Virus record (IMG/VR): IMGVR_UViG_3300009011_000002
Location: 162,774-226,773 of that record
Direction: 5' to 3' (one strand)
DNA: 64,000 bases
DNA from: a virus
Positions 3,962-30,200 of this stretch are shown in pieces. The notes beneath the pieces are model-generated. The model was not told the DNA's origin. It saw nothing but the letters and a program-made list of their open reading frames with translations, and searched no databases. Positions within the stretch are counted from its first letter, which is position 1; each line of letters begins with the position of its first letter. A program made the translations under genes and the position numbers.

Positions 3962-5428
3962 TTACTGGATGAGTTCCAGCTTACGGCTCAGTTCGATCTT
4001 CAGCGGGTTGCCGTTGTTCGGGATCAGGTTGTAGCGTTCCAGCTCTTCCGGCTTCTTCTCGCTGGACATGACGCGGTAAGCACCCTTGGTCCACGCCAGT
4101 GCGAAACTGCACGAGTGGACGTTACGGTACCAGTCGATCCATTCCTGGGACAGGGTGTGGACTGAGGTGGTGAGGTTGGGTTCTTTCGGGCCCTTGTCGA
4201 TGAACTCTTCCAGGCTCTGCGTGAAGGTCTTCAGCGCGGTCATTGGATTGACTGGACGTTGTTTACCCAGCTGGACAATGACCATGTCTTCGGTGATCCG
4301 CTTGGCGTCGAGCCGCTTGGCTACCAGTTCGCCAAACAGCTGGTAGTATTCCGGACCGAAGTTAACCCAGTTACTACCACCGCCACCGAAGGTGTTTTGC
4401 AACGAGAAGTAATTCATTCCCATGGTGAGGTGGAACGAACGGAAGAGTGCGGCCAGGCGTTCGTCGTTGTAAGAACCGACAATCCGACGAAGGAGGTCTT
4501 CTTTCTCAAGAACCGGTTCGTTCTCGGCGCGGTTGTCGAGCACACGCTCGAAGGCTGCCAGGACCAGTTGTCGAGCAATAGGGAGTACTTCGTTCGGGTA
4601 CTCCCAACTGCGCCCTTGTTCGCCGATGATGACGAAGGTTTCATCCGAACGTTCCGCCCAGGTCTGCTGGATCCAGAACAGCATTTGCTTGAAGTTCATG
4701 CCAGCAACAATGCCCTTGAGCTTGGCGGTGACTTCCTTGCGTTTTTCTTCGGTGAGTTCAGTCACTTCTGGTTCCTTTTCGTTAATAGTTTGCTTCTTGG
4801 CCATTTCAAGAATGCGTTGCATGATACCAGCCGCCACAGAGAGACTCGCGGGACCTTCGTAGCGGTACAATGCGCCGGTGACAACATCGAACTCGAAAGT
4901 GAAATCTTGTTTCGACTCGGTGGTCTCTAACCGGTAATTGAAAATGGTGCCTGGAGTGTCTCGGCTTTCGGTCACGTCCAACCGCCACCCAGCCTGGAGA
5001 CCCTGAGAATCACCGTCGAGGTAAGCCCAGTTATGACGAATAAACAGCTTCGCCAGTTCCAAAGAGTGTTCCATTAACCTGCCTTGAGCTGCCGCCGAGT
5101 TGTTCAGCTTGTCAAGGATGTAGTTATAAACCTCCGAGAAGACTTCGTACACATCACCAGGGCTGGTGCCGAAATCCAATGCAGTCAGACGGTCCCCTGC
5201 AAGGTTAGCCGATACTTCAAAGTCGCGGATAGGGACCCCTTCACCACGGCCGGAGCTGTACTTGAACCCGTAACCAGGCGTACCGGCGAAGTATTGCAAC
5301 CGCCATTCACCGATGGTCAGCCCAGGGGAGTAACTGGACCAGTTCATGACCGCGAACACACCGGCCAGTTCTTTAATTTTGTGGGCCAAGTCGGCAGCTT
5401 GTTTCAGTTCCATGTCCTTACTCGTCAT
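3962..5428 (-). CDS. Hypothetical protein, about 488 aa
   Basis: The frame opens at 5443, but the ATG at 5428 (MTSKDMELKQ) has GGAG at a suitable distance and overlaps the preceding gene by only 11 bp; 5413 is also possible. The protein appears to be built of repeated alpha/beta segments of similar style: W-rich starts (VMNWSSYSPG, RHNWAYLDGD) and beta strands around residues 15-85 and 130-200. A charged linker (about 225-250) leads to a helical second half containing a GGGGSNW loop. No family recognised. It is the largest gene of its operon and is followed directly by a strong terminator. Confidence 0.78.
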   Translation of the reverse strand: MTSKDMELKQAADLAHKIKELAGVFAVMNWSSYSPGLTIGEWRLQYFAGTPGYGFKYSSGRGEGVPIRDFEVSANLAGDRLTALDFGTSPGDVYEVFSEVYNYILDKLNNSAAAQGRLMEHSLELAKLFIRHNWAYLDGDSQGLQAGWRLDVTESRDTPGTIFNYRLETTESKQDFTFEFDVVTGALYRYEGPASLSVAAGIMQRILEMAKKQTINEKEPEVTELTEEKRKEVTAKLKGIVAGMNFKQMLFWIQQTWAERSDETFVIIGEQGRSWEYPNEVLPIARQLVLAAFERVLDNRAENEPVLEKEDLLRRIVGSYNDERLAALFRSFHLTMGMNYFSLQNTFGGGGSNWVNFGPEYYQLFGELVAKRLDAKRITEDMVIVQLGKQRPVNPMTALKTFTQSLEEFIDKGPKEPNLTTSVHTLSQEWIDWYRNVHSCSFALAWTKGAYRVMSSEKKPEELERYNLIPNNGNPLKIELSRKLELIQ

Positions 5429-5831
5429 CACGAACAACTCCATATTGATATTTCGCGTCTACCTTGTAACCAAGAGACACCCTTTCTTGCATGGTGACCT
5501 TAGCACGGAAGCGTGCTTTGTTCGTCCCGGTCTCGCGAACAGTGAAGGTTACTTCCGCCTTACGTTGCCCAACGCACACCGACGACTTGATCAGGGCTTC
5601 TACAAAGTTGTTGAAGTACCCTCCCTGACGCAAGTCTTCAGTCATACGCCCCACGAAGATACCGGTTGCAGCTACAGCGTTGGTATACTCGAAGGGCTTG
5701 CCATTAGGGTCCAGTTCCTTCGGCAACTTGTCCGGTGCTTGGTAGGCGTCTTCGAGGAACAGCTTTTGAGTAAAGCTATCCGCCTCTACCTGCACTTCGA
5801 TGTAGCAGTTATCCAGTTCTGCTTCAGACAT
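5418..5831 (-). CDS. Hypothetical protein, 137 aa
   Basis: It starts at an ATG sharing one base with the stop of the upstream gene (TAATG) and runs 11 bp into the next, so the three genes look translationally coupled. Predicted beta-rich: the N-terminus (CYIEVQVEADSF) and C-terminus (RAKVTMQERVSLGYKVDAKY) look like strands around a helical middle. No signal peptide or known motif. Confidence 0.75.
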   Translation of the reverse strand: MSEAELDNCYIEVQVEADSFTQKLFLEDAYQAPDKLPKELDPNGKPFEYTNAVAATGIFVGRMTEDLRQGGYFNNFVEALIKSSVCVGQRKAEVTFTVRETGTNKARFRAKVTMQERVSLGYKVDAKYQYGVVRDDE

Positions 5832-6067
5832 TACTTACTTCCCCTGATTGGTTTGCAAGAAACTTCGATGTTGCTGCTCGTCCCGTTACGAGCCTTCATG
5901 TACTGCGTCGACGACGAGTAGACGTGGTTACGAAGCCCCACATGCTCTACCACGGCCATCATGGCAGAACGACACTCGTTGGAGTCTACGATCTGGGAAA
6001 TGTTCCCATGGACCGGCTGACCGTTAACACTTGCCATGAAGTAGGTAGCAATTAGCAGGGCTTTCAT
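5831..6067 (-). CDS. Small, possibly exported protein, 78 aa
   Basis: The first about 16 residues (MKALLIATYFMASVNG) resemble a short signal peptide ending in small residues. The rest is polar, with two cysteines (near 33 and 72) that could form one disulfide in the periplasm. GAGAGG lies nine bases before the ATG. First gene of the unit ending at 3962. Role unknown; an envelope-acting protein is possible, but the signal call rests on appearance only. Confidence 0.65.
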   Translation of the reverse strand: MKALLIATYFMASVNGQPVHGNISQIVDSNECRSAMMAVVEHVGLRNHVYSSSTQYMKARNGTSSNIEVSCKPIRGSK

Positions 6068-6148: not shown

Positions 6149-7669
6149 TTACATGGCGCCGATCATGCCCGAGACAACGGAAGGATCCACATCCAGGGCG
6201 GATGGTTCAGCGGCATTACCCAGCAGGTTGTTGCCTGGCAGCAGCGAACGACCCACTGCCGAACCCACAGCACCCAGGGCCAGGCCCGCGGTACCAGCAG
6301 CGACGTAACGACCGAACTGGCTTTCGATGTTGCTGTCGATCAGCTCACCGGCGAAGAAGCTGCCGATGGCGCCCGCGACGGTACCCAGTGCCGAACCCAC
6401 GGTCAGGCCACCGCGTGCTGCCATTTCCATGCCACCGCCCACGACTGCTGCGCCGACGCCGATCCAGGAGGAGCGGACGCCTTCGTCGCGTTCGTTCATC
6501 AGGCTGAAGCGGGACTTGGCTGCGGCGGCGCCCTCGGTCAGGTCTTCGATCTTGAACTGGGTCAGCAGGTAGCCCATGTAGGACTTGGTGAACTCCTGCT
6601 CGCTTTCCAGGAAGTTGTAGATGCGGTGGTCGCTGTCCATGTCAGCAGGTGCCGACGCGGAGAAGGTCGCCCAGCGCGCCATCACTTCTGGTTGGCCTTC
6701 CATGAAGTTCAGGAAGACTTGGGTGCGCAGGCCGCCGTCGATCATGCCCTTGGAGCTCAGGAACATGATGAAGCCGTCGAAGTCTTTGGCAGCGTTGTTG
6801 TTGTTGGCGGTGGTGTGAGCGTTGGCGTTGGTCATGGTGTCTTCCTCGGTATTCGCAGATTGGGTTTGGTTGGTTTGTTGTGCGGTGTTTTGAGCTAGCT
6901 GGTCGCGACGCTCTTGGGAGATGTTACGTTTCGAGATCAGTTCGTGTTGGGCATTCATCACGATCTCGATGATGTCTGCCTCGGCGGTAAAGCCGGTGTA
7001 TTCGATGGTGGTGTCATTGACCCTGTAGCCAGTAAGGTTCACCACCTCGGGGCACAGTTCTTTGATCCGTTCTTGCTGGTGTGCCACGATCTTTTCTTCC
7101 AGCGTCAACCAGCTGAAGTGGTGACCGGTCGGTGGGAAGATAGGTTCCGAGGATCCGTTTTCACGGCTCAGTTCGGTATCCGCATCACGGCGTCCGCCCA
7201 CGACAATGTCGGCATTCACCGGGGTATCGTCTTTGAGGGTCTCGTGGTCCTCGATGACTTTAACCACCACGCCTTTATCGCCAGGAAGATCAGTCATCTT
7301 GAACTTCGGTTCAGGATGTTCTTGGGAGGCAGCCATATCAACAGTCGCTGAGCCGTGAAGCTCAGCGACTGGGATAGGGTTAGCTGGGATCGAGGCGGGT
7401 GCTGCAGCAGCTGGGGCTACCGGCTCTTCGAGCACGATGGTCTTGGCTGCTTTGATCTGGGACATCGAATACTTCGTGCCCAGTTTGTGGTTCACGTTCG
7501 TCAGGACTTCAGTGCGAGACTGTTGCCGTACGAACTTGGGGTCGAGGAGCTTGGCCTTGATGGCGCTCTTCTGCTCTTCGACGGTGCCGCCCTTTTCACG
7601 CATTCCTTTAACAATGCCAACGATCGTCTCGATGGCAAACTCAGGAGTGGGGAATTGATCGTCAGCCAT
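6149..7669 (-). CDS. Hypothetical protein, 506 aa, with glycine-rich hydrophobic C-terminus
   Basis: A single-gene unit between a strong promoter-like element and a UUCG terminator, which suggests high expression. Residues 1-85 are a charged helical region, 90-275 are acidic and linker-like, and 275-300 are low complexity (N, T, A). Residues 300-390 are helical, and about 395-490 form a long Gly/Ala-rich hydrophobic stretch able to span or insert in membranes. An internal ATG at 6835 (residue 279) has AGGA seven bases upstream and would give a separate 228-aa product. The protein at 45531-45878 has a similar Gly/Ala-rich core. Function unknown. Confidence 0.78.
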   Translation of the reverse strand: MADDQFPTPEFAIETIVGIVKGMREKGGTVEEQKSAIKAKLLDPKFVRQQSRTEVLTNVNHKLGTKYSMSQIKAAKTIVLEEPVAPAAAAPASIPANPIPVAELHGSATVDMAASQEHPEPKFKMTDLPGDKGVVVKVIEDHETLKDDTPVNADIVVGGRRDADTELSRENGSSEPIFPPTGHHFSWLTLEEKIVAHQQERIKELCPEVVNLTGYRVNDTTIEYTGFTAEADIIEIVMNAQHELISKRNISQERRDQLAQNTAQQTNQTQSANTEEDTMTNANAHTTANNNNAAKDFDGFIMFLSSKGMIDGGLRTQVFLNFMEGQPEVMARWATFSASAPADMDSDHRIYNFLESEQEFTKSYMGYLLTQFKIEDLTEGAAAAKSRFSLMNERDEGVRSSWIGVGAAVVGGGMEMAARGGLTVGSALGTVAGAIGSFFAGELIDSNIESQFGRYVAAGTAGLALGAVGSAVGRSLLPGNNLLGNAAEPSALDVDPSVVSGMIGAM

Positions 7670-7776: not shown

Positions 7777-8115
7777 TTATCCGCACTGGATAACAGGTTT
7801 TGGTGGAGGGTTGGTAGGTGGAGGGAACTTACGGACCAGTTTTAAGTGCGAACATTTGACCAATGCAAGTTCACCGAAGTCAGTCTCACCTGTCGACGTC
7901 ACGTACTCCAGTTCGCATGGAGGTGTAGCATGGGCCACTATCCATGCTGCATCGTCCGCGTTATTGTCGAAGACGTAGAACGACGTCTCATGCTTCGAGT
8001 TACCATCCCGCATGCAGGGAATGAATCGGATCAAGTGAACGTGGGTGCCGATGTTGACCTTCGTGATGTCAGCATCAGTGATGATACAAAGATCACCTTT
8101 CTCGAGCTTGTCCAT
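7777..8115 (-). CDS. Hypothetical protein, 112 aa
   Basis: AAGGGG precedes the ATG and the upstream gene ends 2 bp away. The N-terminus (LEKGDLCIITDADI) and the VHLIRF and HLKLVRKF strands suggest a small beta-barrel-like fold of the kind often seen in phage hypothetical proteins. The C-terminal tail is proline-rich (FPPPTNPPPKP). Four cysteines are spread along the chain without a clear metal site. Confidence 0.75.
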   Translation of the reverse strand: MDKLEKGDLCIITDADITKVNIGTHVHLIRFIPCMRDGNSKHETSFYVFDNNADDAAWIVAHATPPCELEYVTSTGETDFGELALVKCSHLKLVRKFPPPTNPPPKPVIQCG

Positions 8116-8117
8116 AG

Positions 8118-8558
8118 TTACCCCTTAGGCTTCTTCCAGCCGTAGTCAGCTTTCCAGAACACCAGTTCTTTACCTGGCCAATCAGAGAACACACTGTTCA
8201 ACGCCATGATGTCGTATTCATCGAAATCATAGGCAATCGAAATATGGGGGAGTGGGGTCTCGTAGGCATGCTGGTAACCGGCATCCCGCAAGCGGCGGAA
8301 CTCTTCGTTGAGGTCCGGGCTGGTGAGGTGGAAGACTACACCATCACCGAGGGGTTCCAGCTTGGTGACGAATGCACGGAACTCACGCTCCGGGTGCAGT
8401 TCAGCCAGTGGGCGGTCGATACCACGGTCGTCGAAGATTATGGTGGAGTGCAGGTCATGCTTGGGGATCTGTACCCCACATTCGCCCAGGAGCTTGTAGA
8501 TCTCCATGATGAACTCGGGTTTCAGTTCTGCGGCTACGTAGCTGTAGTCACGTTCCAT
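8118..8558 (-). CDS. 2H phosphoesterase, Acb1-like (possible anti-CBASS protein)
   Basis: The 146-aa protein has the two catalytic motifs of the 2H phosphoesterase fold: H37-S-T39 within DLHSTIIF and H105-I-S107 within LPHISIAY, 68 residues apart. Its size, motif spacing and N-terminal pattern (YVAAEL, then KHDLHST) fit the phage Acb1 group, typified by T4 gp57B. That group cleaves the cyclic di- and trinucleotide signals of bacterial CBASS immunity. Other 2H enzymes (RNA 2',3'-cyclic phosphodiesterases) are an alternative. The second motif has Ser where Acb1 usually has Thr. It overlaps its upstream gene by one base (TAATG) and lies among small accessory genes, where counter-defence genes are common. 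Confidence 0.65.
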   Translation of the reverse strand: MERDYSYVAAELKPEFIMEIYKLLGECGVQIPKHDLHSTIIFDDRGIDRPLAELHPEREFRAFVTKLEPLGDGVVFHLTSPDLNEEFRRLRDAGYQHAYETPLPHISIAYDFDEYDIMALNSVFSDWPGKELVFWKADYGWKKPKG

Positions 8559-8809
8559 TATTTCTTTTTCCTTGTAACGAAGATAGCGTGGATATTAGGT
8601 CTACTGCCAATGCGTTGGTTCAAGCGGCGACCCACCAAAGCTTGTTTAGAACTCGGGTGTGGGCAATCGTAAGCGAAGTAGGAAGAACCGTTGGTAAAAT
8701 AAACAAGGTCAGGAAGTTCCGGGTAAGGAGTAAAACTCATCCCCCCAAAAGATAACACGCCCAGGTCTGAGTGATCACAAGTGCCCGTCATCACTATTCT
8801 TGGAAACAT
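8558..8809 (-). CDS. Hypothetical protein, 83 aa
   Basis: The ATG at 8809 (MFPRIV) has GGGGTG five bases upstream and is preferred over a GTG two codons earlier. The protein is small, with a conserved-looking aromatic centre (DLVYFTNGSSYFAYDC) and a basic tail ending RKKK. It is transcribed just ahead of the 2H phosphoesterase gene. Function unknown. Confidence 0.68.
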   Translation of the reverse strand: MFPRIVMTGTCDHSDLGVLSFGGMSFTPYPELPDLVYFTNGSSYFAYDCPHPSSKQALVGRRLNQRIGSRPNIHAIFVTRKKK

Positions 8810-8841
8810 AATCACCCCAAAGCAAAAAAGAAAAGGTTAAG

Positions 8842-8868: not shown

Positions 8869-9078
8869 TTACTGAATAATGCTTACAGTAACTTGGATCA
8901 ACGGGCCATCTTTACTCAGCTTATTGGAGAGCCGGGTAATAGCCTGGCGCTGTTCGTCAGAGAACGCACGGAGACTGCTGAACACGTTCGTGGTGAGCAC
9001 GTGATTTCCGAGTGTAAATAACACATGTTTCTTGGCGTCATAGCCGGCTTTACGAGCAAGACCGAGAAGACCGCTCAT
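8869..9078 (-). CDS. Hypothetical protein, 69 aa
   Basis: Small basic protein, last gene of its operon, coupled to the gene before it by a TAATG overlap. It begins with a helical SGLLGLARKAGYDAKK segment and ends in beta-like residues (LIQVTVSII). No family recognised. Confidence 0.68.
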   Translation of the reverse strand: MSGLLGLARKAGYDAKKHVLFTLGNHVLTTNVFSSLRAFSDEQRQAITRLSNKLSKDGPLIQVTVSIIQ

Positions 9079-9249: not shown

Positions 9250-9585
9250 TTACTTCCTTTTGATTTTGACGATGTAAGGTGAAGACGGCGACGAAGAGAG
9301 TGGGACAGTTTCAAATTCCCGACCTTCGAAAACAGCTGCATTACGTTCAACAACGCTTCGCGTAGCTTCGGTGACAGCCTGAGCGAAGGCAGCTTTGGTA
9401 TAGGTTGCACGAGGACCTCCGTTGTCAATCCAGTGGGGTGGAAGATCGACATGAGGGGCAAGGGCCTCTACAAACTTTTTGGCGTCGGCTTTGTCGATCT
9501 CTTGTGCCCGCCATTGCAACCAGTCCAGGTTGATTACGTATGGACTGACGTCAACTGCGTGGAGCAGGGGTGGTGGTATTTGCAT
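9250..9585 (-). CDS. Hypothetical protein, 111 aa (NLDWLQWRA family)
   Basis: It starts MQIPPPLL and contains NLDWLQWRA near residues 20-28, matching the 88-aa protein at 2143-2409. A helical middle (KAAFAQAVTEATRSVVERN) and a short basic tail ending VKIKRK follow. Probably a diverged duplicate of that gene. The larger size comes from extra sequence after the shared N-terminus. Function unknown. Confidence 0.72.
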   Translation of the reverse strand: MQIPPPLLHAVDVSPYVINLDWLQWRAQEIDKADAKKFVEALAPHVDLPPHWIDNGGPRATYTKAAFAQAVTEATRSVVERNAAVFEGREFETVPLSSSPSSPYIVKIKRK

Positions 9586-9593
9586 AAGACCTC

Positions 9594-9866
9594 CTAGATC
9601 TCGTTGACCGTAAACTCCAAGGTCTCCGAGAAGCTCATACCGTTCATGAAATCTTCCCCGATCTCGGCTTTGGTGATAAAGCCGTTCTCGACAGTAATAT
9701 GGTACTCGTGGTCGGAGATAGTTGGGTGCTTACGGATGACCACCACCTTAGGCCCGCCCACAACACCCAAGACCTTTTCCAAGGCATAGGTGTCAATCGG
9801 TTTACCGACGGCAGCGGCTTTAGGACGATACATCCAGTCGTTCTTGTAACGGTAGAAGTGAATCAT
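9594..9866 (-). CDS. Hypothetical protein, 90 aa
   Basis: The ATG at 9866 (MIHFYRYK) has AAGGA seven bases upstream and starts 2 bp after the previous stop; a TTG two codons earlier is less likely. Beta-rich small protein with strands around KVVVIRKH and YHITVENGFITKAEI. Function unknown. Confidence 0.7.
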   Translation of the reverse strand: MIHFYRYKNDWMYRPKAAAVGKPIDTYALEKVLGVVGGPKVVVIRKHPTISDHEYHITVENGFITKAEIGEDFMNGMSFSETLEFTVNEI

Positions 9867-9868
9867 GG

Positions 9869-10225
9869 TCAATCCTTGGGGTAAGCGTTGGGATACTTGC
9901 TGTCGTCCTCGTCTTCGATTTCAACCGCCCAACGATGGGTAACCATTTCCAGTGCCAAAGGATCTACAACACCACCCATCTCTTTGGCCACTTCCGTAAG
10001 CAAGGTGGGGTGGTAGTTGTGGTCACCCATTAAGCAACCGCCGACCCTTTTCTCTACTTTCCTTAGTACATCGTCGGGATCGATGTTTTCTACCCGACCG
10101 TCGGGATGGAGGGCATACACGCTGTACCACTTGCAGTAGTTCTCCATGGTCACAATAGGTCGACCTTCCGGGTCAATCTCTTGAGCCAGCAATGGAATAC
10201 CGCGGTGACTTACGTACTTGGCCAT
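9869..10225 (-). CDS. Hypothetical protein, 118 aa
   Basis: It overlaps the upstream gene by 16 bp, with AAAGGG seven bases before the ATG. The protein begins with a compact beta-like region (RPIVTMENYCKWYSVYALH PDGRV, a pattern seen in small phage proteins of unknown role). A helical part follows, then an acidic tail (EIEDEDDSKYP). No catalytic motif seen. Confidence 0.72.
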   Translation of the reverse strand: MAKYVSHRGIPLLAQEIDPEGRPIVTMENYCKWYSVYALHPDGRVENIDPDDVLRKVEKRVGGCLMGDHNYHPTLLTEVAKEMGGVVDPLALEMVTHRWAVEIEDEDDSKYPNAYPKD

Positions 10226-10617
10226 ACCTTGCCCTTTAGTCGGTTGTTGTCCGTAATGGAAAGAACTTCAATTTTCAAGTCATTCATCAGGGTGCAATGA
10301 TCGTTGTCGATTTTCGTGGCAACATACACATAGGTCTGACCGTGTAGAATGCCCTTTAAATCACCATCCACCCAACGCTTGTTAATGACATGAACAACCT
10401 CACCTACATACTTGCCTTCACTGTAAGAGAATCGACAGTGGATGTCTACGGTGTGGTCTTTATAGGGAAGATCATACACGACACATAGCGCCTGGCAGGT
10501 ACGCCAGAAACCAAAAGTGAGTGCTTCTTCGTAAGAAATCTGGCGATTGCGTCTAAGGTACAGCGTGGCTATCCTTACCGACATCGCCGGATGAGGGTTA
10601 AAGTGGGCTGGGTCCAT
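10210..10617 (-). CDS. Hypothetical protein, 135 aa
   Basis: It starts at an ATG sharing one base with the stop of the RNase HI gene (TAATG). Mixed alpha/beta, with a helical N-terminal half (ATLYLRRNRQISYEEALTFG) and a strand-rich second half (HGQTYVYVATKI). It is co-transcribed with RNase HI, but nothing in it suggests a nucleic acid role. Confidence 0.72.
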   Translation of the reverse strand: MDPAHFNPHPAMSVRIATLYLRRNRQISYEEALTFGFWRTCQALCVVYDLPYKDHTVDIHCRFSYSEGKYVGEVVHVINKRWVDGDLKGILHGQTYVYVATKIDNDHCTLMNDLKIEVLSITDNNRLKGKVWPST

Positions 10618-11117
10618 TAAGCAACCTTCTTGTATTCTTCGTCATGGACGGTAGGGTTACCGGCCGCTTCCTTGGCAAGCTTATCGGCTAGCTCGTTATC
10701 GGGAATACCCGCGTGGGCTTTAACCTTGATAAACGTCACCTTGTTCACCGCCAGCAGTTCGTGCATGATCCGCCACAGATCTTGGTTCTTGATCGGCTGT
10801 TGGGTCTTCCACGAAATGTAACCACTTCGGTTCCAACCCTTCAACCATTTGGTCGAACAGTCAATTGTGTACTGCGAGTCTGTGTAGATCTCGAAATGTT
10901 TACCCGGGCCGAATTCTTCCAGTGTCGCAATAACCCCCATGATTTCCATACGGTTATTGGTCGTCAAGTAGTAGCCCTTAGAGAGTGTGACCATCAGGTC
11001 TCCGCATCTCACTACCGACGCATAGCCCCCAGGACCGGGGTTGTTCAAGGCGCTACCATCCGTGTGCGCCTTGATTACGACTGGAGGCGTTTTACTCTTC
11101 GCCGCCTTTTTGGCCAT
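10617..11117 (-). CDS. rnhA: Ribonuclease HI
   Basis: 166-aa RNase HI, which cuts the RNA strand of RNA-DNA hybrids, for example replication primers. The start at 11117 (MAKKAAKSK) has GAGGAG six bases upstream. The family motifs are complete: D20 in HTDGSALNNPGPGG, E59 in NNRMEI, D80 in IYTDSQY, H135 in KAHAG and D145 in NELADKLAKEAA. This gives the DEDD catalytic set and the handle region (WLKGWNRSGY). Length is normal for bacterial RNase HI. The gene overlaps the upstream gene by 26 bp and lies in the same unit as DNA ligase, fitting a primer removal and nick sealing pair. Confidence 0.96.
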   Translation of the reverse strand: MAKKAAKSKTPPVVIKAHTDGSALNNPGPGGYASVVRCGDLMVTLSKGYYLTTNNRMEIMGVIATLEEFGPGKHFEIYTDSQYTIDCSTKWLKGWNRSGYISWKTQQPIKNQDLWRIMHELLAVNKVTFIKVKAHAGIPDNELADKLAKEAAGNPTVHDEEYKKVA

Positions 11118-12126
11118 CAGTTTCTCCTCGCGGGTCAAAGTGCCCCATACGTTCCATCGCCTCGATAACTTTCATACGAGACTGAATGGAGTCAATAACG
11201 AACTGCGCTTGACTTCGGGTGAAGTCACAGATCGGACAGCCATCCGCAACCATGTTGAGAATTTCATTTTGGAAAGTCTCATCAAACTTACGGTCAACTT
11301 CGACGCTGATATAACTCTTGTGCGAATCGACACAATAAATACCGTCGCCAGTGTGGTAAAAGTAGTAGAAGGTGTCTGGGGTATCAATCCGACAAAATTG
11401 GAACTGGTCCCATACTTGGAACTGGATCGGCTTGAAGCGCATGTCATTCCAGTGGCCCTTCAGCAACAGGATGCCAGTTTGACAGTCAACACTGATGCCA
11501 TTCAGAAATGCACGCAACAGGATCAACTTCCCACCTTGTGCGACGAGGTGAGAGTTCTTCAACTCACTCGTCTGAATGTCAATGCCGTACACGGAGTACA
11601 GGGAGGAGTCGTAGATCGAACTGCTGCGAATGTAAACATCCGCGACACTGTCCGTCTCCGTCCCATCCATATTGCGATCGGACTCAGCTGGCAGCCGGGT
11701 GTTTTCCAGGTGGGTAGATTCCAAGTGGGCACTCTCCACATCCCGGGAGAAGATATTGGACCACTCCTTGTTGAACCCGATGTAGGAATCCCGCATGTAG
11801 CAGTTGGTCACATTGGCGTGGACGATGGTGTTGTTCTCTCGCAGCTTGATACCGTCCACTGTGCTGTCGACGACAGTTAGGGTAGCGAGGTGGCGGTTAG
11901 CTTCAAAGTCCTTTGCATAGAGCCTGACAGAGCTCTTCCCATCGACAGTGAGCATCAGGGCCGTGTCGTTCACCGGAATACGGTAAATGTCGTCCCCGTT
12001 GACCGACGCATTACCCATGTGCTCTGTAAGCACTCCCTGGGCATTTGGAGCTACGTTGATCTGTTGAGGGATCAGGCGAACGCCGTCCATGTACACTTCG
12101 CTGTTGAATTCGAATTTCTCAGTCAT
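11092..12126 (-). CDS. Repeat-rich protein, 344 aa, paralogue of the next gene
   Basis: The likely start is the ATG at 12126 (MTEKFEF); an ATG four codons earlier is possible. Residues about 85-215 contain short irregular repeats of strand-sized pieces (TLTVVDSTVDGIKL, NVTNCYMRDSYI, ESAHLESTHLENTRL) that suggest a parallel beta-helix. The C-terminus resembles that of the 495-aa neighbour (FQFCRIDTP against FNFLKVDLP, then a helix ending SRMKVIEAM against SRLEMIRIL). Both also share a TVDGKSSV/YLDDKSSV region. The two are probably old duplicates. Role unknown; a virion or DNA-mimic role would be speculation. Confidence 0.75.
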   Translation of the reverse strand: MTEKFEFNSEVYMDGVRLIPQQINVAPNAQGVLTEHMGNASVNGDDIYRIPVNDTALMLTVDGKSSVRLYAKDFEANRHLATLTVVDSTVDGIKLRENNTIVHANVTNCYMRDSYIGFNKEWSNIFSRDVESAHLESTHLENTRLPAESDRNMDGTETDSVADVYIRSSSIYDSSLYSVYGIDIQTSELKNSHLVAQGGKLILLRAFLNGISVDCQTGILLLKGHWNDMRFKPIQFQVWDQFQFCRIDTPDTFYYFYHTGDGIYCVDSHKSYISVEVDRKFDETFQNEILNMVADGCPICDFTRSQAQFVIDSIQSRMKVIEAMERMGHFDPRGETDGQKGGEE

Positions 12127-12146
12127 GGCAAATCTCATATAAGTTA

Positions 12147-12189: not shown

Positions 12190-13677
12190 TTAATTGTCGA
12201 GCACGTCGTCCCAACGATCGAAACGACCTTCCACGGTACGTACGATCTCGGTAGCCGAGTCCAGGATGCGGATCATTTCCAGACGCGACATTACCGCATC
12301 TACCGCATACTTGATGATGCTTTGTGCCAGCGGGTTGTTGTCAGGTGCTGGGGCGATTTCTTCCCAGCGGTAAGCGCGGCCGGAGATCACTTCGGTGACC
12401 ACCTTCTCGATCGCTTCACGATCGTCGGTGAGCAGGATGCGCTTCGGTGTGCCGGTGAAGATATAGATATCCGCTTCGGTAGCCGAGGTACGACCCATGT
12501 GCAGTGTATCGGTCGGCAGGTCAACCTTGAGGAAGTTGAACTTGTTCTGCATGTTCAGCGCACGCTGGGAGATGTGCTCGCCGTTCAGGGAGAGGTTACG
12601 CAGGGTAACATGCCCTTCGCAATGCACCGACGCTTCGACTGCATTCACGCGTTCCAGGAAGACTGTGGAACCTTTGATCTCCGCATGATCGAGGTAACCC
12701 TCGACAACACGCAGGTAACGATCCGATACCAGCGTGGAGCCTGTCACCGTAACCTTCGAGTAGAACCCTTCCGGTACCTGAGAGTCGGCGATCTGCGAAC
12801 GGCGCAGACGCAGACGTTCGTGACGGTGACGTTTGAACTTGAATTCCTTGTCGGTAGTACCCCATGGCTTGAGCGACTGACGGCTTCCATACCGGTAACC
12901 CTGGTATTCACGCTGGGCACGAATGACGGACACATTCATCACCGAGTTCTTCACGTCAACGTTGTGCAGCTGGTTCTCACCCAGGAACAGGTTGTTCTCG
13001 CTGCTCGAGTTGATGAGCACCACTTCCGCTGGCATGGACGAACGACGGGAGACGTAGCAGTCGTAATCATCGCCATGACCCAGCTTGTTCAGTTCCATGA
13101 CCACGCTGGACTTGTCGTCGAGGTAGTAGGTCAGGGTAATGCCGTCAACAACGACGTAGTATTCGCTGATGGCGGTGTCGTCCAGGCCGTACAGGCTGAA
13201 TTCCATGCGCGGCTGTTGGATACCGGCATTGTCCTTCGCAGGGTCAACGATTCGGCCACGGTGGATCTTCAAACCAGTACGACTCGGCGCAATCTGCATG
13301 CTGTTGACCACCACGTAAGGCGGTTCCAGCATGGCGATGTCACGCTCGGTCAGAGCGACCTTGTCCGGGTAGATCTGCATGTACGGCTTGCCGTCACCGT
13401 TGAAGAGGTTTACTGCCTTCACGGGTTCAGCAGTCGTGTCATACGACCACGGTAAGCCAGTAAAGGCGGGATCGGTGCTGGTGACCAGGGTCTTTCCCTC
13501 GTGGTCCTTACCGACCTCTTTGATGGCAGGTTTAGCGGCACCTGCCTGGCTGGCGTTCTTGATCTTCTTGGCGACCATGGCTTCCACGGCTACCGGAACA
13601 TCGGCCTTGGCGATCAAGTCTTTGGTAACGTCCTTGACCACTTGATCTTTGTCTTTTACTGCAGTTTCTTTAGCCAC
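12190..13677 (-). CDS. Repeat-rich protein, 495 aa, GTG start
   Basis: It starts at a GTG directly abutting the TAA of the ligase gene, with AAGGAG eight bases upstream; no in-frame ATG occurs before about residue 34. Residues 1-60 are charged and K/A-rich, 80-200 form a beta domain, and 200-380 hold strand-sized irregular repeats (VVLINSSSENNLFLGENQLHN-type pieces) suggesting a beta-helix. The helical C-terminus matches the 344-aa neighbour. Several basic patches (KFKRHRHERLRLRRSQ) could contact nucleic acid. Tight coupling to DNA ligase suggests expression together, not necessarily shared function. Confidence 0.78.
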   Translation of the reverse strand: MAKETAVKDKDQVVKDVTKDLIAKADVPVAVEAMVAKKIKNASQAGAAKPAIKEVGKDHEGKTLVTSTDPAFTGLPWSYDTTAEPVKAVNLFNGDGKPYMQIYPDKVALTERDIAMLEPPYVVVNSMQIAPSRTGLKIHRGRIVDPAKDNAGIQQPRMEFSLYGLDDTAISEYYVVVDGITLTYYLDDKSSVVMELNKLGHGDDYDCYVSRRSSMPAEVVLINSSSENNLFLGENQLHNVDVKNSVMNVSVIRAQREYQGYRYGSRQSLKPWGTTDKEFKFKRHRHERLRLRRSQIADSQVPEGFYSKVTVTGSTLVSDRYLRVVEGYLDHAEIKGSTVFLERVNAVEASVHCEGHVTLRNLSLNGEHISQRALNMQNKFNFLKVDLPTDTLHMGRTSATEADIYIFTGTPKRILLTDDREAIEKVVTEVISGRAYRWEEIAPAPDNNPLAQSIIKYAVDAVMSRLEMIRILDSATEIVRTVEGRFDRWDDVLDN

Positions 13678-15654
13678 TTATGCCGCTCCTTGTTTGATGT
13701 GCTTGATGAGAGTGTCGATAGAATCGACTTGGGTTCCGCTCACTATACGGATACCCAGCTCAGCTGCTTTTAACAGTTTACTGTTACTAGGCTTCTCCCC
13801 CACGATGAGGAAGTCGCAGTCCTTACTAACGGTGTTTACCAGTTCAACCCCGTGGTGTTCGAAATACCGTGTCAACAGATCACGAGGTTGACCCAATTCA
13901 CCGGTAACGCAACCTTTGAGACCACTGCCCAGGAAAGCCATTGGAACCTCCTTGAGGGTGCTCAGTAACAAAAGGGCATTATCCCTCCAGTCGGGGTCTT
14001 TGGCTGTCTCGGCGATCGGAAGTGCTAAGCCCGCTGAGAACCCGGAGATCTTTACGATGTTGTCCACATCACCGAACCAATCCAGCAAGGCCGGTGAAGA
14101 ACCGGAACCCCACGCCACCGCCAGCTTACGCGCGCGGGTCAAACTGATGTTAGGTAAACCCAACGCACAGATGATTCGATCCAGTGGTTGTTCTTTGGCG
14201 CACTTAACCGAATCAAGGTTGCCATTGTTCAGCCACGGGTACTCGACAGCAAAGATATCCGCTGGGCGGTTGACATGACCCTGGTCGATCAAACGACCCA
14301 TGACAATTGGACCGATACCACGGATATCCAGACACCGTTTACCCACCATTGCCAAACACCGCATCAGAAGCTGTCCAGGACAGCCAGAGACGTTGTTACA
14401 GAAGAGGTCGGCGCTGGTCTTGGTAACGCGCAGTTCCAACACGGAACCGCAGTCAGGACACTCCGTAGGAGCTTCCAGCATCTTGCCTGTACCGTGATCA
14501 GCCACCACTGACACCTGAGGGATCACATCACCGTTACGGGTGATCACTACCTTGGAGTCTTCCCGTAGCCCTAACTCCATGAAGTTGCGGTAGTTGTGGA
14601 TCAAAGCCCGAGAACACCAAACCCCACCCAGCTTAATCGCTTGGTAGATACCGGTCGGTACCACACGCCCCACTTTGCTGGTCGCCCAGTCGATGCTCTC
14701 GAATGGCGTGGTCGCTTCGGCAAACGGGAACTTGTACGCTCGAGCTGAATGACTAAAGCGGTTGTTGTGACCCAGTTCAGCAACCACGTTCAGGTCGTTG
14801 TGCTTGATCACGATACCGTCGGATGGCCAGTGAATGTCTTCACGGTTCTCTTTGATATCTTCAATGTCGCAAGGTGGTGCGGGACGGAACCCTGCTTCTG
14901 ACCATTCCCCCAACAAGTGGCTGTACTCGGTTTGACCCAAGTTATTATCGCTCCAATAAATCCGGAACGACAACATCCCCAGTACAGCTTCGTCCTGGTT
15001 CTTCAACAACGCTCGTACCCAACCACTGACCGCATTACGTGGGTTAGCTTTCTCCTTGGTGGAAATCTCGTTGTACTGCCGGTAGTTCTCGTACGAGATA
15101 ACCCCCTCGCCACGAATCTCCATGTCAGCCGGCCAATGACTCGGGATATATTCTGGAATGGAGTCGTCAAACAACCGGATGGAATGAGTAACATCCTCGC
15201 CGTCCAACCCACTGCCCCGGGTAAACATCCCCACCCGTCGCCAGTTCTCATAACGAACGGATAAGGCTATGCCGTCCAACTTGACTTCGTACCAGTAGAA
15301 GGTATCGGGTGGAAACTTCTTCTGGAACTCTTCCACTTCTTCCATCGAGTAGACTTTCTTCAAGCTGATCATGGGTTGATCGAACTTGATAATCTTCAAG
15401 CCTTCGTTGGTAGGGGTGTGAATTGGCACAGGGCGCTGGTGAATGGCAAACAGTTCTGCCAAATCAGGACGGTGTTCCGCCAGCACATCCCAACGCTTCA
15501 CCAGATCGTCGTAAACGTGGTTAGGGATCTCTTGCCTGTCCTTATTAAAGAACAGATCCGCGTGGTAGGTGATCTGACGAGACAGGTTTTCCATCTCCTC
15601 GAAGATGACGTCCTGCTCGTCACTTTCGGTAGCGGGAGCAACTTGAAAGGCCAT
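13678..15654 (-). CDS. ligA: NAD+-dependent DNA ligase
   Basis: 658-aa ligase sealing nicks in duplex DNA with NAD+ as cofactor; the length matches bacterial LigA. Domain order is complete. The Ia NMN-binding region lies near residues 25-55 (EIPNHVYDDL). The adenylation domain has catalytic K125 in YEVKLDGIAL and motif TRGSGLDGEDVTH. The OB domain follows, then a zinc finger with CPDCGS and a later CNNVSGC. Helix-hairpin-helix repeats (GIGPIVMGRLIDQG, LGLPNISLTRARKLA) and a C-terminal BRCT domain (about 575-655) complete the chain. AGAGG lies six bases before the ATG. Residue 31 is H in the Ia region. It heads a unit with RNase HI downstream. Confidence 0.97.
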   Translation of the reverse strand: MAFQVAPATESDEQDVIFEEMENLSRQITYHADLFFNKDRQEIPNHVYDDLVKRWDVLAEHRPDLAELFAIHQRPVPIHTPTNEGLKIIKFDQPMISLKKVYSMEEVEEFQKKFPPDTFYWYEVKLDGIALSVRYENWRRVGMFTRGSGLDGEDVTHSIRLFDDSIPEYIPSHWPADMEIRGEGVISYENYRQYNEISTKEKANPRNAVSGWVRALLKNQDEAVLGMLSFRIYWSDNNLGQTEYSHLLGEWSEAGFRPAPPCDIEDIKENREDIHWPSDGIVIKHNDLNVVAELGHNNRFSHSARAYKFPFAEATTPFESIDWATSKVGRVVPTGIYQAIKLGGVWCSRALIHNYRNFMELGLREDSKVVITRNGDVIPQVSVVADHGTGKMLEAPTECPDCGSVLELRVTKTSADLFCNNVSGCPGQLLMRCLAMVGKRCLDIRGIGPIVMGRLIDQGHVNRPADIFAVEYPWLNNGNLDSVKCAKEQPLDRIICALGLPNISLTRARKLAVAWGSGSSPALLDWFGDVDNIVKISGFSAGLALPIAETAKDPDWRDNALLLLSTLKEVPMAFLGSGLKGCVTGELGQPRDLLTRYFEHHGVELVNTVSKDCDFLIVGEKPSNSKLLKAAELGIRIVSGTQVDSIDTLIKHIKQGAA

Positions 15655-23579: not shown

Positions 23580-26500
23580 TTATGGCAAGAGCTCCGCCTC
23601 ACGCAGGAACGCGAAGATGCCCTCGTCTTGTGGGAACCCGGTACTGATCGGAATGATCCCCCCTTCACGGGTGAAGCTGAAGAGGAAGTCACCCACCATG
23701 AGCGGCTGCAACCGTTGGATACTGAGGATCTGCAACTGAGCGGTTGTGACCACCCCCACCAACATCATCGAACCCGACTTACGGAGTTTGACACCAGAGA
23801 TGAAATACCCGGGCGTGTCATCCTCGATTGTCGCGTAGACGTAAAACGTCTTGTTCGCTGGGGCTGGGTCGATATCCCGCAGGTCTATGGAACCCCCCGG
23901 CATCTCGTAGTTGGTTCCGTTGATCATCATCCGGATACCATCCTGGAAGAACAGTGTCCAGCCTGTTTGCGGGTACACGGTAGGACCAATATACCAGTCA
24001 ATAACCCCGGTTGTTTCATCGGTCTTGTGCAGCAACCGCGCGGCACCGCCGGTGTAGTCGTAGACCGCTGGAGTCACGGTGTTGATACGGCCAGTGTCCA
24101 CACCCCCCGTCAACCCCACATCACTCATACCCACCTTCGGGATTGGTGCACACAAGTCTGGCACCGACCACGACGCTTGGTAGGAGAAAATGTTCTCGAG
24201 CTTGTTGGTCGGGATATCCACATCAAACCGCGCCGTTTGCCGGGTATAGATGGTTGCTGTGGTGTTGGTGGTGTAGGCATTCATGTTGTATATCTGCAAC
24301 TTGTTACCGTCGCGGTAGATGTACATCCCGGCTTTGGAACGAGTACCTACCAATCCCAATAGATTCTGCTCGGCAACCCGGTTGTTGATTGCGCTGCTAT
24401 AAGCCGCAGACGTATCCAGGACAGTGATGTCCTTGATCCAATGCACATCCGGATGGTCGGCATTGGGTGCTTCTACTACGGGGCGGAACAACACAAAGAT
24501 CTGGCGGGTGAACTGCTTGGCAGGGTCCTGGAACGCAATGATTGCAATGCCCAAATTCAAGCCTTTGAACATCCCACCCATCTCGTTACCAAGGATGTGG
24601 AAACATACCGACCATGGCTTGTGTGCCGTGTAAACTGCCGGAATCATCGCTTCCATCTTGTCGATGAGTTCTTTCCGTACCCCGTAGAAACTGGTTGGGG
24701 TATACGTTGCCCGTTTGGTACCGGCATCCAAGACCTTGTTGAACGTCCGTGCGCAGGAGATCAACATGCTGTTGGCTGCTGGGGCCGTGAAACCAGCCGA
24801 CCTCGGGTAGGAATGCCCCGCCCCCATGGAGGAGTACCCCATAGACGCCAATGACGTACTACCGCATTCTACCCCACCTGCTGTCAACTCAGCCGCACTT
24901 CCGGTGATACCGATAGGGGCTTCGTAATACGCCATGTTGGTTTGGTAGATGTCGTTGGTCAATGGGCGAGACTTGATCCCACTGACTTCCGTGTTGGTCA
25001 CTTCAGGTCGTACAGCGTAAGGACCCGAGACTTTACGGAAATACGTCGCACGGGTGTTAGTTACCGGGTTTGTCGCAGAGTACAGTTCACCATCAGCTTC
25101 GTACGTCATGGCTGCTGGGAACACACCACTCAGCAATGGAGAACCCACCATCTGACTCACCCGGCGCTGTTCCTTGACCGGGGTGTAGATAATGTCCATA
25201 CGTTGCGACAGAACTTCCGCGGCGGTCTTACGGCCTTCATACACCAGCTTGGTCATGTACGCCGGGAAGTTGTTACCCCCCGAAGACGTGGCCATGAGAA
25301 TCTCACCACTGTCAAGAATAACCCCACACGAACCAGCAGCCTGACCGTAGCCATCGTAGAACTGGTAGTAGTGGGCCCGGGTGTAATCCTGGCGTTCGGT
25401 TTCCGTGGTGTTTTCGTAGTCGGCCGTCCAAGATGGGTTACGGAACACCTCCGTGAACACGCCTGTCGCTGGGTTGAACTCGTAACCGGTTCCCATTACC
25501 GACGAAATGTTTCGAAGTTCAGTAGCGGTACGGTAACTGGAGTTCATGCCCTGCAAGATGAAGAGGTATTCAGAAACCGAGTTGTTAGGCTTCTTAGCGT
25601 TCAGGAACATCGTCTTACCACCACGGTTGGTGGAAATCGGAGGTTGCATGAAAGTGATCGGACCCCAACCGGTGAGGACGCCGTTAGTGCGGACTTGCTG
25701 CATCGGCTGGAAGCGCTCGACGTTGGTCTGCTGAACGTTCTCGTAGTTCTTGTAGGTGAGCAGGATTTGCTCCCATTCGAGAATGTCGTGGTTCTCTTTG
25801 AACTTCGACACTGGGATCCGGAAGAACAAGTGCACGTCAACGTTGCTGGTACCTGGGGAGATAATCAGAACAACATAATCACCCATCAGGTGGATGCTCA
25901 GGCGGTTATCCGTGTTGGCATAAACCGACAGCACAGCTTTACCCTTAGCCAGCACTGGGGCCATGTTGACTTCCGTGTACTGATGCGCGGTAGCATCCAG
26001 TGTACCGTTAGTCAAGGCAACGAACCAACGGTCCAAACCATCATCACCTACCATGATCACACGGTGGTTACTCCCACCCACCACGGTCGTTGGGTTGAAG
26101 TTCTTAGCCAACAACGAAGGGGCTTCGTACTTATAACCGGTGTAGGTGATCTTTGGGTTGGTGGTGAAGAATTCGGCAATCTGGGAGTAGTACAACCCCT
26201 CGTTACGACCGTCGTTGTGGCTAGTCAGCATCATGATCAGCCCGGACTTCTCCAAGCAGAATGCCGACGATACCGACAACGACCCTAAACCTTCAAAGGC
26301 ACCGGAGATGTTTGGCGGAATGAAACTCTCACCACCAAACTTACTGATTGGCATGATACCCGTACGCATCGCTGCATCCGTGTCCGGGATGTACGACTTG
26401 GCGAGTTCCTGGATACCCTGAGGAGTCGACAGTACGTCCGCACGAATACCTGCCTTGTCCTCTGCCAACGTTGCCGTGGCGAAGTTAGGGTGGTTACCCA

Positions 26501-27173
26501 TGAGGATGTCGAACTTGGTGATCAGGTGTGGGGAGTGGTAGTTGTCGTCGTGGTTCTTCAACAACGTCATGTACTGTGCTTTGGTGGTCTTCAGCACGTT
26601 GTACGCGTTGGTGATGGTTGTGTCCACGTCAACGCCCGTCGACGCACCTGTGGTCTTCCAGAGGCCTTGGAAGACCTTACAGAAGTAGGTGAGCTCCCAC
26701 CAGTCACCAATCTCGGTTTTGATGTTCTGGATGTGCAATGCCGGAGGCAGGGTCTCTGGCATCCCGAAGACCTTGTCCCACGGGATAGGGACCTTACCTT
26801 TGTGGAGCTTCTCCATCCACCCCGCCAGTTGACTGCGAGGGACGAAGTACGCACCGATCGATTGGTAGTCGATGGTGATGTGGGTGTTCGCTGCCAGCAC
26901 CGCATTGGACACACGGATGAAACTGCACACCGACTTGTTGGACGCATTACAGAAGGGAACAAACTCCCCCTCGAAGAAGTAGTCAGTGTTAAGCTTGAGC
27001 AACCCACCGGCTTGGTTGTACACCTTCACCATTGCAGGTACTGCAAAGAACGGGGAACCATCCGGGATTACCCAGTTCAACGTTTTGTCTTTCAGAAGAA
27101 TCTTTTCACCCGGGATGGTGTTCACCGGGTTTGTTGCGTGGACGTCAAACTCTACCAGTCGAATGGGATCCAT
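23580..27173 (-). CDS. Large tail-fibre-like virion protein, 1197 aa
   Basis: Block order matches the 1177-aa upstream neighbour. The N-terminal module (about 1-150) contains DGSPFFAVPAMVKVY and ITIDYQSIGAYF. A helical linker leads to the block PISKFGGESFIPPNISGAFE near residue 280, and a long beta-rich middle of about 600 residues with propeller- or jelly-roll-like strands follows. The C-terminal module has SIDLRDIDPAPANKTFYVY. Identical phrases in the neighbour (PISRFGNTNFIPPSIDGSFE, NIDLRDINPTPANKTFYIY) show duplication. Such modular fibres usually recognise host surfaces. Probably expressed late with the other fibre genes. Confidence 0.72.
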   Translation of the reverse strand: MDPIRLVEFDVHATNPVNTIPGEKILLKDKTLNWVIPDGSPFFAVPAMVKVYNQAGGLLKLNTDYFFEGEFVPFCNASNKSVCSFIRVSNAVLAANTHITIDYQSIGAYFVPRSQLAGWMEKLHKGKVPIPWDKVFGMPETLPPALHIQNIKTEIGDWWELTYFCKVFQGLWKTTGASTGVDVDTTITNAYNVLKTTKAQYMTLLKNHDDNYHSPHLITKFDILMGNHPNFATATLAEDKAGIRADVLSTPQGIQELAKSYIPDTDAAMRTGIMPISKFGGESFIPPNISGAFEGLGSLSVSSAFCLEKSGLIMMLTSHNDGRNEGLYYSQIAEFFTTNPKITYTGYKYEAPSLLAKNFNPTTVVGGSNHRVIMVGDDGLDRWFVALTNGTLDATAHQYTEVNMAPVLAKGKAVLSVYANTDNRLSIHLMGDYVVLIISPGTSNVDVHLFFRIPVSKFKENHDILEWEQILLTYKNYENVQQTNVERFQPMQQVRTNGVLTGWGPITFMQPPISTNRGGKTMFLNAKKPNNSVSEYLFILQGMNSSYRTATELRNISSVMGTGYEFNPATGVFTEVFRNPSWTADYENTTETERQDYTRAHYYQFYDGYGQAAGSCGVILDSGEILMATSSGGNNFPAYMTKLVYEGRKTAAEVLSQRMDIIYTPVKEQRRVSQMVGSPLLSGVFPAAMTYEADGELYSATNPVTNTRATYFRKVSGPYAVRPEVTNTEVSGIKSRPLTNDIYQTNMAYYEAPIGITGSAAELTAGGVECGSTSLASMGYSSMGAGHSYPRSAGFTAPAANSMLISCARTFNKVLDAGTKRATYTPTSFYGVRKELIDKMEAMIPAVYTAHKPWSVCFHILGNEMGGMFKGLNLGIAIIAFQDPAKQFTRQIFVLFRPVVEAPNADHPDVHWIKDITVLDTSAAYSSAINNRVAEQNLLGLVGTRSKAGMYIYRDGNKLQIYNMNAYTTNTTATIYTRQTARFDVDIPTNKLENIFSYQASWSVPDLCAPIPKVGMSDVGLTGGVDTGRINTVTPAVYDYTGGAARLLHKTDETTGVIDWYIGPTVYPQTGWTLFFQDGIRMMINGTNYEMPGGSIDLRDIDPAPANKTFYVYATIEDDTPGYFISGVKLRKSGSMMLVGVVTTAQLQILSIQRLQPLMVGDFLFSFTREGGIIPISTGFPQDEGIFAFLREAELLP

Positions 27174-27241: not shown

Positions 27242-30200
27242 TCAAGGGAGCATTTCAGTCGAACGCAGCCATGGGATCTGGCCTTCGTCGTTAATGAGAC
27301 CCGACGACGCTGGAATGCTGTTACCACGCTTCACTTCAGACACTCGGTGGCCGTCTATTGCAAACACGTTGAAACGTTCTACCGAGATGATCTGACGATC
27401 GTTGGTGACAGCCCTGCCGACCCACAGTTGGAAGTTGGATTCCAACCGCTTATCTTCCGACACTTCGTACTTCGCTTCCCCGCCATCCATCAAGGCGTAA
27501 ATGTAGAACGTCTTGTTGGCAGGGGTCGGGTTGATATCGCGCAAGTCGATGTTCCCCGTGGGCAGAGTATACAGCTTGCCGTTAAAGACCGCTGTCAGTG
27601 CTGCCGAGAAGTACAACACCCAACCTGTTGCAGGGTAGGTATGACCGTACAGGATCTCCTTGGTTGGCCCTTGGAACATGGTACCGGCACCACCCGTGGA
27701 CGTGCTATGGGCAATGGCGTACACCACACCGTCATCAGGTGCCACACACTTGTGGCGACCACCACCGCTTTGTCCAATGATGGTTATCCAAGTACTACCG
27801 TCTGTAGACCACCGCTTAGTGGTGCGGTCAAAGCTGAAGGTGCAGTACGACACCAACCCGTCACCTGGACCCGACGCATAGATAGCCGGGTCAAAGAATC
27901 CGGTGACTGTGTTACCGTCCACATGGAACCCGGCACGTTGCGTACCGTGGGTGGAGTTCGGGTTGCTGTTGCCCCACAGTGCGGCGTCCCAGTAAGTGCT
28001 GGTCAAAGAAACCGCGCAGTTCTCGAATATGGCGTGCATCTTGTCCAGAACAGTGAACCCAGTTACCGTACGGTTGGTGGAGCCGGAGTAGATGGGGGTA
28101 ATACTCAGCAACGTCTCACGACGGTTAGTGGTCCCCACCTTGCCCCAACAAATTTGCACCAATACCGGGAGCCAACCGAACTTCGCGGTCAGAGGACCGT
28201 TAGGGTCACAGATCGACACGAACACACTTGGGCAAGCGTTCAACCCAGCCACATCGTCCACTTGCTGCTTGAGCAACGCCACGATAGCCGCGGGATACAA
28301 GATCGATCCCGTAGGAACAATGGTGATGGTCCCGTTGGTTTCGATCTTCCGGGTGTGTCCGGTCATGATCATGACGTCTTCAGGGTTGCTCCCCATAGGC
28401 CATGCACTGGCACCTGGCCACGCAGACAGGTCACACCAGCGTTTCTGGGTCCCAACACAAAACGCATTCTCCGCCAAGTCAATCCCGTACGTGCTCAACT
28501 GGGCTGTTGGGCAAGTAACACTGGCGGCGCCCACCCGAGGGTCTGCGTTGACCAGTCGAACGTCGTTACTCAGTGGGCGTGACAACACATTCGGGTAGAA
28601 CAAGTTGGTCACTTCCGAGCGCTGGGCCAAACGACCGTTACCCACTCGGTAGAACAGTTGCAAGTAGCCGAGGGTGTCTGGGTTTGGCGTGGTGTAGAAA
28701 TCACCGCCGTTACCCAAAATGAACGAACGTGGTTTGATGCTGGATTTCAACGGGCTGAGCACCGACTCCAGCACATCACTGATCTGGCTCATGGAACCCA
28801 GTTGAGTGTTCCACTGCCGGTTCATGGTATCATAGCGGGTCTTCCAGTCCTTGGGACGCCATATCACCGTACCCCGTGGGAATGACTGGTAAGTCCCATA
28901 AGACACCACAATAGAACCGTCTTCCAAAACAGTCCCGCCTTGGCAGTTATCTTGGAACACCAGGGCGTTCATGCTGATCGGCCCGATACTTGGTAGGTTG
29001 GTGTAATCCAGCGTGTACCGCGGGGTCTGGTACAACAACGTCATGACGTTGGTAGTTGGATCGAACTCATAGACCATTTCGATCATGAGCTCATAACCTG
29101 CCGTGAACTCCGGGATGGTGTACTTCGACCACCACGCACCTGTAAAGCGCAACAAAAACTTCCCAGGTTTACTCGGGATGGGTGAAACGTACGTTTGCTG
29201 TGAGCGGTAGCACCCCGTGCACGAGACGTTTTCCGTCTGCACAATGGGGAAGTACCACTTCAAGAAGGACGCCCCCAAACCGTTAGGATGAGGGATCGGA
29301 GTCCCCCAACGCCACACCGGGGAGTTGGTCCATTGCACACCCTCGCCGTCTTTAAAGGTCAGGTTAACCAATGCCGCAGTCACCGGCAATTGAGCTTCGA
29401 CGGTCGCCTTCGGTACCCGGCCAATGTAACGGTAGTTGAAACCACCCCCCACATCAGCAAGTTTGTTGCGGTACGGAGTAGCCATGATGATGTAGATCCA
29501 ATCCCCCACCAACACCACGTTGGTGTACTGGAGGAAAGAGATCATATCCGCACCCGCATTAACCGCAGGGGCAAACGCCGACATGTCCAGCTTACTGATC
29601 ACGTGTTTCGACGGGTTCAAGGATCCGTTGGTCAACCCAACATACCACTGGGCTTTACGGCTGTCGGCCACCAGGATGACTTCGCCACCACTGCCTTGTG
29701 CAATGAAGTTCGGGACAGTCCCGTCTGCTTCAAAACGTTGGTGGTTGTAGCGGTAACCGGTGTACTGCCGCTTGGGGTTGTCGTACGGGGTTTGGACCAC
29801 CGAGTAATACAGACCGTCCACACGACCGTCCATGCGGTTTTCCAAGAACACAAGCGAGCCATCGGTTTCCATGCAGATACCGGCGGTCTCGTACATCCCA
29901 CCCAGACCTTCAAACGAACCGTCAATCGATGGTGGAATGAAGTTGGTGTTACCGAAGCGGGAGATTGGCAGGGCGTTGGCTGGCAGGAACTCGTCGCTGT
30001 TAAAGCCGAAGTTGTCAATGATGGTCTTCAGGCCCGACACCGTAACGTGGAGATCGTTACGACCTTGCAGCAGAGTGTTACCCCGCGCTGTGGCAAAGTT
30101 GTCTACCTTCTCCAACCCGAAGTCTGCCGTCTTCAATCCGTGCGCGTTATACGCATTGATGTGGTTGTTCAAGAAGGTGGTCAACATCTTCTTGTTGAGT

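Follow-up and report, generated by a model that had tools for sequence, protein, structure and literature searches.

Computational analysis of family, fold, catalytic motif, conservation and genome context identifies the product of a minus-strand gene at 8118–8558 as a new member of the known Acb1 family of 2H phosphoesterases and assigns it to a branch that has been little studied and whose substrate pocket is altered. All positions refer to the window, i.e. the whole 64,000-nt stretch of DNA analysed, which belongs to a virus record of 226,773 bp. By extension from the proven enzymes of phages T4 and FBB1, from which its catalytic activity, substrate, location and anti-CBASS role are deduced, the protein probably uses metal-independent 2H catalysis to open CBASS-type cyclic oligonucleotides via a 2',3'-cyclic phosphate, which would block effector activation. 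The novelty is modest in that UniProt already names close relatives Acb1.

The gene and its immediate surroundings comprise the following features:

8118–8558, minus strand: Acb1-family 2H phosphoesterase gene, 146 aa (translation; PF23474, phrog_755 and fold match)
8569–8573, minus strand: AAGGA, ribosome-binding-site-like, 10 nt before the Acb1-family ATG (sequence)
8558–8815, minus strand: small upstream ORF, 85 aa, whose stop overlaps the Acb1-family start (TAATG)
7777–8115, minus strand: small downstream ORF, 112 aa (phrog_2529, E = 1.1e-5, function unknown)

According to its translation, the reading frame extends from an ATG at 8558 to a stop at 8118–8120. Since its start overlaps the preceding stop and the next ORF begins at 8115, the gene forms part of a tight run of small genes. 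An ORF on the opposite strand (8244–8672) was dismissed as a by-product of the gene on the minus strand. The 85-aa ORF found no match in Pfam or PHROG, and none of the neighbours matched a recognised anti-defence gene in PHROG and Pfam profile searches. Seven flanking minus-strand ORFs lack a PHROG match (3962–5443, 5418–5831, 5831–6067, 8558–8815, 8869–9078, 9250–9585 and 9594–9872) and are possible accessory or anti-defence candidates. A 506-aa protein at 6149–7669 (minus strand) gave only short and weak PHROG matches, including one of 42 residues with an RNA polymerase beta family, and no match in a Pfam search.

A preliminary description of this DNA had read the gene as encoding a 146-aa protein with two H-x-S/T motifs 68 residues apart and an N-terminus resembling phage Acb1. 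The translation bears out both motifs and their spacing, and Y7-V-A-A aligns with Y12-V-A-A of T4 Acb1. The motifs lie at:

8442–8450, minus strand: first catalytic motif H37-S-T39, corresponding to H44/T46 of T4 Acb1 (sequence; T4 Acb1 alignment; invariant in 14 homologues)
8238–8246, minus strand: second catalytic motif H105-I-S107, corresponding to H113/T115 of T4 Acb1 (sequence; alignment; Ser in 27 of 27 jumbo-branch sequences)

Of the T4-type HxT/HxT tetrad (H44, T46, H113, T115), the window protein thus keeps H, T and H, while the fourth residue is a Ser, a conservative change. When the protein was shuffled 20,000 times, two HxS/T motifs 55–85 residues apart arose in 1.5% of cases, and the stricter hydrophobic form in 0.07%; among the 99 ORFs of 100–250 aa in the window, two carry paired HxS/T motifs and one the stricter form. 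Taken alone the motif pair is therefore suggestive, and the profile match, the invariance and the low dN/dS are more decisive. H37, T39, H105 and S107 are invariant across 14 homologues with identities to the window protein down to 28%. For close homologue pairs with unsaturated dS, dN/dS lies between 0.02 and 0.13, pointing to purifying selection in these pairs; it is 0.28 for the pair of the window gene and L014, where dS is 1.2.

Profile and structure comparisons both place the protein in the Acb1 family. Residues 7–120 match the Pfam Acb1 family PF23474 at 49.8 bits (E = 3.9e-13; cut-off 27 bits), a family that all 14 aligned homologues match as well, and no other Pfam family reaches its cut-off for the window protein; PF02834 (LigT) is not matched, and an NCBIfam search gave no match. 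When a profile of the 14 homologues was compared with the PDB, the two known sets of Acb1 structures, from phages BCSR5 (E = 1.6e-8) and FBB1 (E = 4.1e-7), were found, the best non-Acb1 match having E = 0.5. The AlphaFold model of the window protein (pLDDT 89, pTM 0.83) agrees: the top five Foldseek matches in the PDB are all Acb1 chains (E = 2.4e-7 to 3.6e-5), followed by one at 0.012, with TM scores of 0.72–0.75 for Burkholderia phage BCSR5 and 0.56–0.57 for phage FBB1. Among viral models the top hit, with TM 0.88, comes from RisingSun and bears the UniProt name 'Anti-CBASS protein Acb1'. The link to T4 Acb1 is clear from a profile–profile comparison of the two branches (97.8%, E = 1e-12) and marginal in direct BLASTP, where E = 0.001 was obtained for a single comparison and would lack significance in a database search. 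The preliminary description had proposed an Acb1-like 2H phosphoesterase, to be told from other 2H families by profile search and structure prediction; at family level both now support it, with PF23474 above and PF13563 (2'-5' RNA ligase) below the cut-off, and all significant PDB matches of the model (BCSR5, FBB1) being Acb1.

Membership of the 2H superfamily also invites a different reading, namely that the protein acts on RNA ends like LigT, 2'-5' RNA ligases or CPDases, opening 2',3'-cyclic phosphates in RNA repair or turnover. PF13563 does match 11 of the 14 homologues (best E = 1.1e-5), PHROG 755, which the window protein hits with E = 1.5e-21, is labelled RNA ligase, RNase H is a neighbour, and the residues with which T4 Acb1 reads the adenines of CBASS signals are absent. 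For the window protein itself, however, the PF13563 match is weak (E = 0.093) and under the cut-off (13.2 against 27 bits), and although E. coli LigT and the RNA 2',3'-CPDases share the 2H fold and motifs, LigT (E = 0.06) and CNPase (E = 0.04) are much poorer structural matches than Acb1. The label is uninformative on function: RefSeq applies 'RNA ligase' to EL gp126 (L002:5998-6423) and RisingSun gp120 (L003:5989-6423), but equally to T4 gp57B (L013:53-511), which has been shown to cleave CBASS signals (PMC9117128). We therefore reject it as a functional label and regard it as a legacy name that hides anti-CBASS candidates, and we consider an RNA-end enzyme unlikely.

What sets the protein apart from the characterized Acb1 enzymes is its substrate pocket. 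In T4 Acb1, the bases stack on Y12, W74, F107 and W147, E141 reads the adenine N6, and a lid formed by residues 145–152 closes; the pocket has room for cyclic di- or trinucleotides only, as clashes shut out larger rings (PMC9117128). Two stacking positions are retained in the window protein:

8538–8540, minus strand: Tyr7, corresponding to the base-stacking Tyr12 of T4 Acb1 (alignment; Y12 role PMC9117128)
8262–8264, minus strand: Tyr99, an aromatic residue at the position of the base-stacking Phe107 of T4 Acb1 (alignment; F107 role PMC9117128)

Like T4 gp57B (NP_049750.1) and FBB1 Acb1 (PDB 7T26/7T27), the window protein thus combines the 2H fold and PF23474 with an HxT first motif, a His in the second and aromatic residues at the Tyr12 and Phe107 positions. 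Unlike them, it has Ser for Thr115, Leu70 in place of Trp74 and no Trp at the position of Trp147 in the lid, and three alignment modes agree on Gly140 at the position of Glu141, where, towards the C-terminus, the register is less secure than in the core. The BCSR5 phosphodiesterase (PDB 9Q2G/9Q2Y), the best match among solved structures at about 19% identity, differs in that both of its motifs are HxT and that its lid has been captured open and closed. The same pattern extends across the jumbo-phage branch, with Tyr at the Y12 position (Phe in kin of GAP32), a usually aromatic residue at F107, Leu or Met at W74, and G, S, D, E, Q or A at E141, where no acidic residue is fixed; most of these proteins end before W147. 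Many T4-type members in turn carry Phe at W74 and several lack W147, so that these two residues mark the T4 and FBB1 enzymes rather than the family, and loss of the lid alone is no sign of inactivity.

Based on these alignments, catalysis can be expected of the jumbo branch, while the base preference of T4 Acb1 is not transferable to it. By analogy, the window protein would work in the cytoplasm of the infected host, where CBASS signals arise. Tyr7 and Tyr99 would hold a cyclic oligonucleotide by stacking above the two catalytic histidines, and H37/T39 and H105/S107 would activate a ribose 2'-OH for attack on the adjacent 3'-5' phosphodiester. The ring would then open through a 2',3'-cyclic phosphate, and the signal would be gone before a cell-killing effector is activated.

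The absence of E141, W74 and W147 with the lid from the jumbo branch counts against an Acb1 function as known from T4, and two further readings take it as their starting point. One is a non-cleaving binder (sponge) of cyclic nucleotides or a degenerate copy, as the protein lacks several residues that contact the substrate in T4 Acb1. We judge this highly improbable: both His-x-Thr/Ser motifs are invariant throughout the branch, although a pure sponge would need no tetrad, and dN/dS is low in close pairs. The other is a phosphodiesterase for larger rings, such as the cA4/cA6 of type III CRISPR, made possible by a shortened C-terminus and an altered base pocket. The missing lid Trp and the lack of a fixed E141 equivalent fit this reading, as do the ring-size limit of T4 Acb1 (PMC9117128) and reviews describing type III CRISPR as effective against nucleus-forming phages. 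Some T4-type members, however, likewise stop shortly beyond the E141 position, which means that a short tail by itself implies no new substrate, and PCH45, a nucleus-forming phage and known type III CRISPR target, has no Acb1-family gene; we hold a dedicated larger-ring enzyme to be quite unlikely. Cleavage of CBASS signals is our preferred function. Within the Acb1 reading, we tentatively raise the rather doubtful idea that the jumbo branch is a functionally distinct variant with a substrate range other than that of T4 (other bases, or larger rings such as cA4), kept in some nucleus-forming phages because signalling defences act outside the nucleus.

The preliminary description had noted the Ser of the second motif as a variation from the usual Thr. 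Thr is indeed the usual residue, found in 73 of 102 distinct family sequences against Ser in 29, but the Ser is no individual variation: it is fixed in 27 of 27 jumbo-branch sequences. In a tree of 59 sequences, these 27 fall on one side of a split with 100/100 support, with the T4-type proteins opposite; sampling of the family was not exhaustive, the relatives of BCSR5 and PaBG, for example, being left out. Two T4-type proteins, L096 and L102, carry Ser in an otherwise T4-like pocket (W74 and E141 kept), which indicates that Ser is compatible with both backgrounds; they are useful natural controls for the Thr-to-Ser change. The 2022 set of Acb1 homologues was collected by default BLASTP from T4 Acb1 (PMC9117128), and given the marginal BLASTP match, the jumbo branch was probably absent from the homologues tested then. 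In our own search of viral contigs, a single protein as query gave nothing, so that an alignment was required; the full alignment of 12 sequences proved too diverse as a query. A weak search of bacterial genome contigs (a single scan with one strict pattern) gave no relative of the jumbo branch.

The window comes from a jumbo phage of 227 kb that is a relative of Pseudomonas phage EL. The best named relatives of the protein come from EL and its kin (43–45% identity) and from Erwinia phage RisingSun (38%). EL gp126 and RisingSun gp120 belong to the same branch, share HxT/HxS, lack the same residues and are likewise placed downstream of NAD ligase and RNase H; they differ from the window protein by ordinary divergence only; which genes, and how many, separate RNase H from the Acb1-family gene varies. 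In the window, the syntenic neighbours are:

10617–11138, minus strand: RNase H, syntenic neighbour (phrog_531, E = 2.9e-48)
13678–15654, minus strand: NAD-dependent DNA ligase, syntenic anchor (phrog_3869, E = 7.9e-136)

In the window and in all 12 relatives checked, RNase H precedes the Acb1-family gene on the same strand by about 0.4 to 5.3 kb, and the NAD-dependent ligase is likewise upstream of the Acb1-family gene, in the same order in the window genome, EL and RisingSun. OBP has the gene elsewhere, three genes after its RNA polymerase gene, and in T4 it sits beside gene 57A and gene 1. Acb1 and RNase H show correlated pairwise distances, with r = 0.90 overall (0 of 10,000 permutations as high) and r = 0.73 within the EL-like group (5 of 10,000), as expected if the two genes were inherited together. 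Between RNase H and NAD ligase, the window has two adjacent minus-strand genes (11092–12138 and 12190–13677) whose products show weak mutual similarity (20% identity over 146 aa, pairwise E = 4e-5); in EL a single unknown protein occupies this interval, and in RisingSun a protein of similar size accompanied by two small ones. Farther along, two neighbouring minus-strand genes for proteins of about 1,180–1,200 aa (23580–27173 and 27242–30775) both match phrog_3573 and tail-protein families, which suggests a duplicated tail gene.

The genome also encodes a chimallin, a 679-aa ORF on the minus strand (G000:C1:45321-47358) that matches the nuclear shell protein phrog_4795 with E = 2.8e-121 and, like its phiKZ counterpart, immediately precedes an RNA polymerase gene. 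Single-sequence searches with the chimallins of phiKZ and PhiEaH1 missed this gene, which was found by its position beside the RNA polymerase gene and by the PHROG profile. From its presence, the source phage very likely forms a nucleus of the Chimalliviridae type. Within the jumbo branch, chimallin is encoded by the EL, RisingSun, pTD1, Miami and OBP groups, and not by GAP32-like phages and some contigs that are perhaps fragments. Among 26 chimallin-encoding records, chosen partly for having Acb1, 17 carry the gene and nine do not, including phiKZ, 201phi2-1, Goslar and PCH45; Acb1 is therefore not required for the nucleus lifestyle. A search for Acb2 (PF24729), for which T4 served as the positive control, detected none in the window genome or in 19 other jumbo phages.

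The phage nucleus excludes DNA-cutting defences but cannot stop signalling defences from killing the cell. CBASS III-C strongly protects against one nucleus-forming phage (PMC10889362), so the shell alone is no barrier to CBASS, and phiKZ counters CBASS with Tad1 (PMC13282480); both make an anti-CBASS role of the window protein plausible. A 2026 review describes Tad1 of phiKZ as the only anti-defence protein so far described in jumbo phages (PMC13282480). The Acb1-family gene, kept near RNase H in phages of the EL, RisingSun and pTD1 types and masked by the name 'RNA ligase', is a candidate for the missing counter-defence, and the altered pocket of its branch makes the reading range of Acb1 directly testable.
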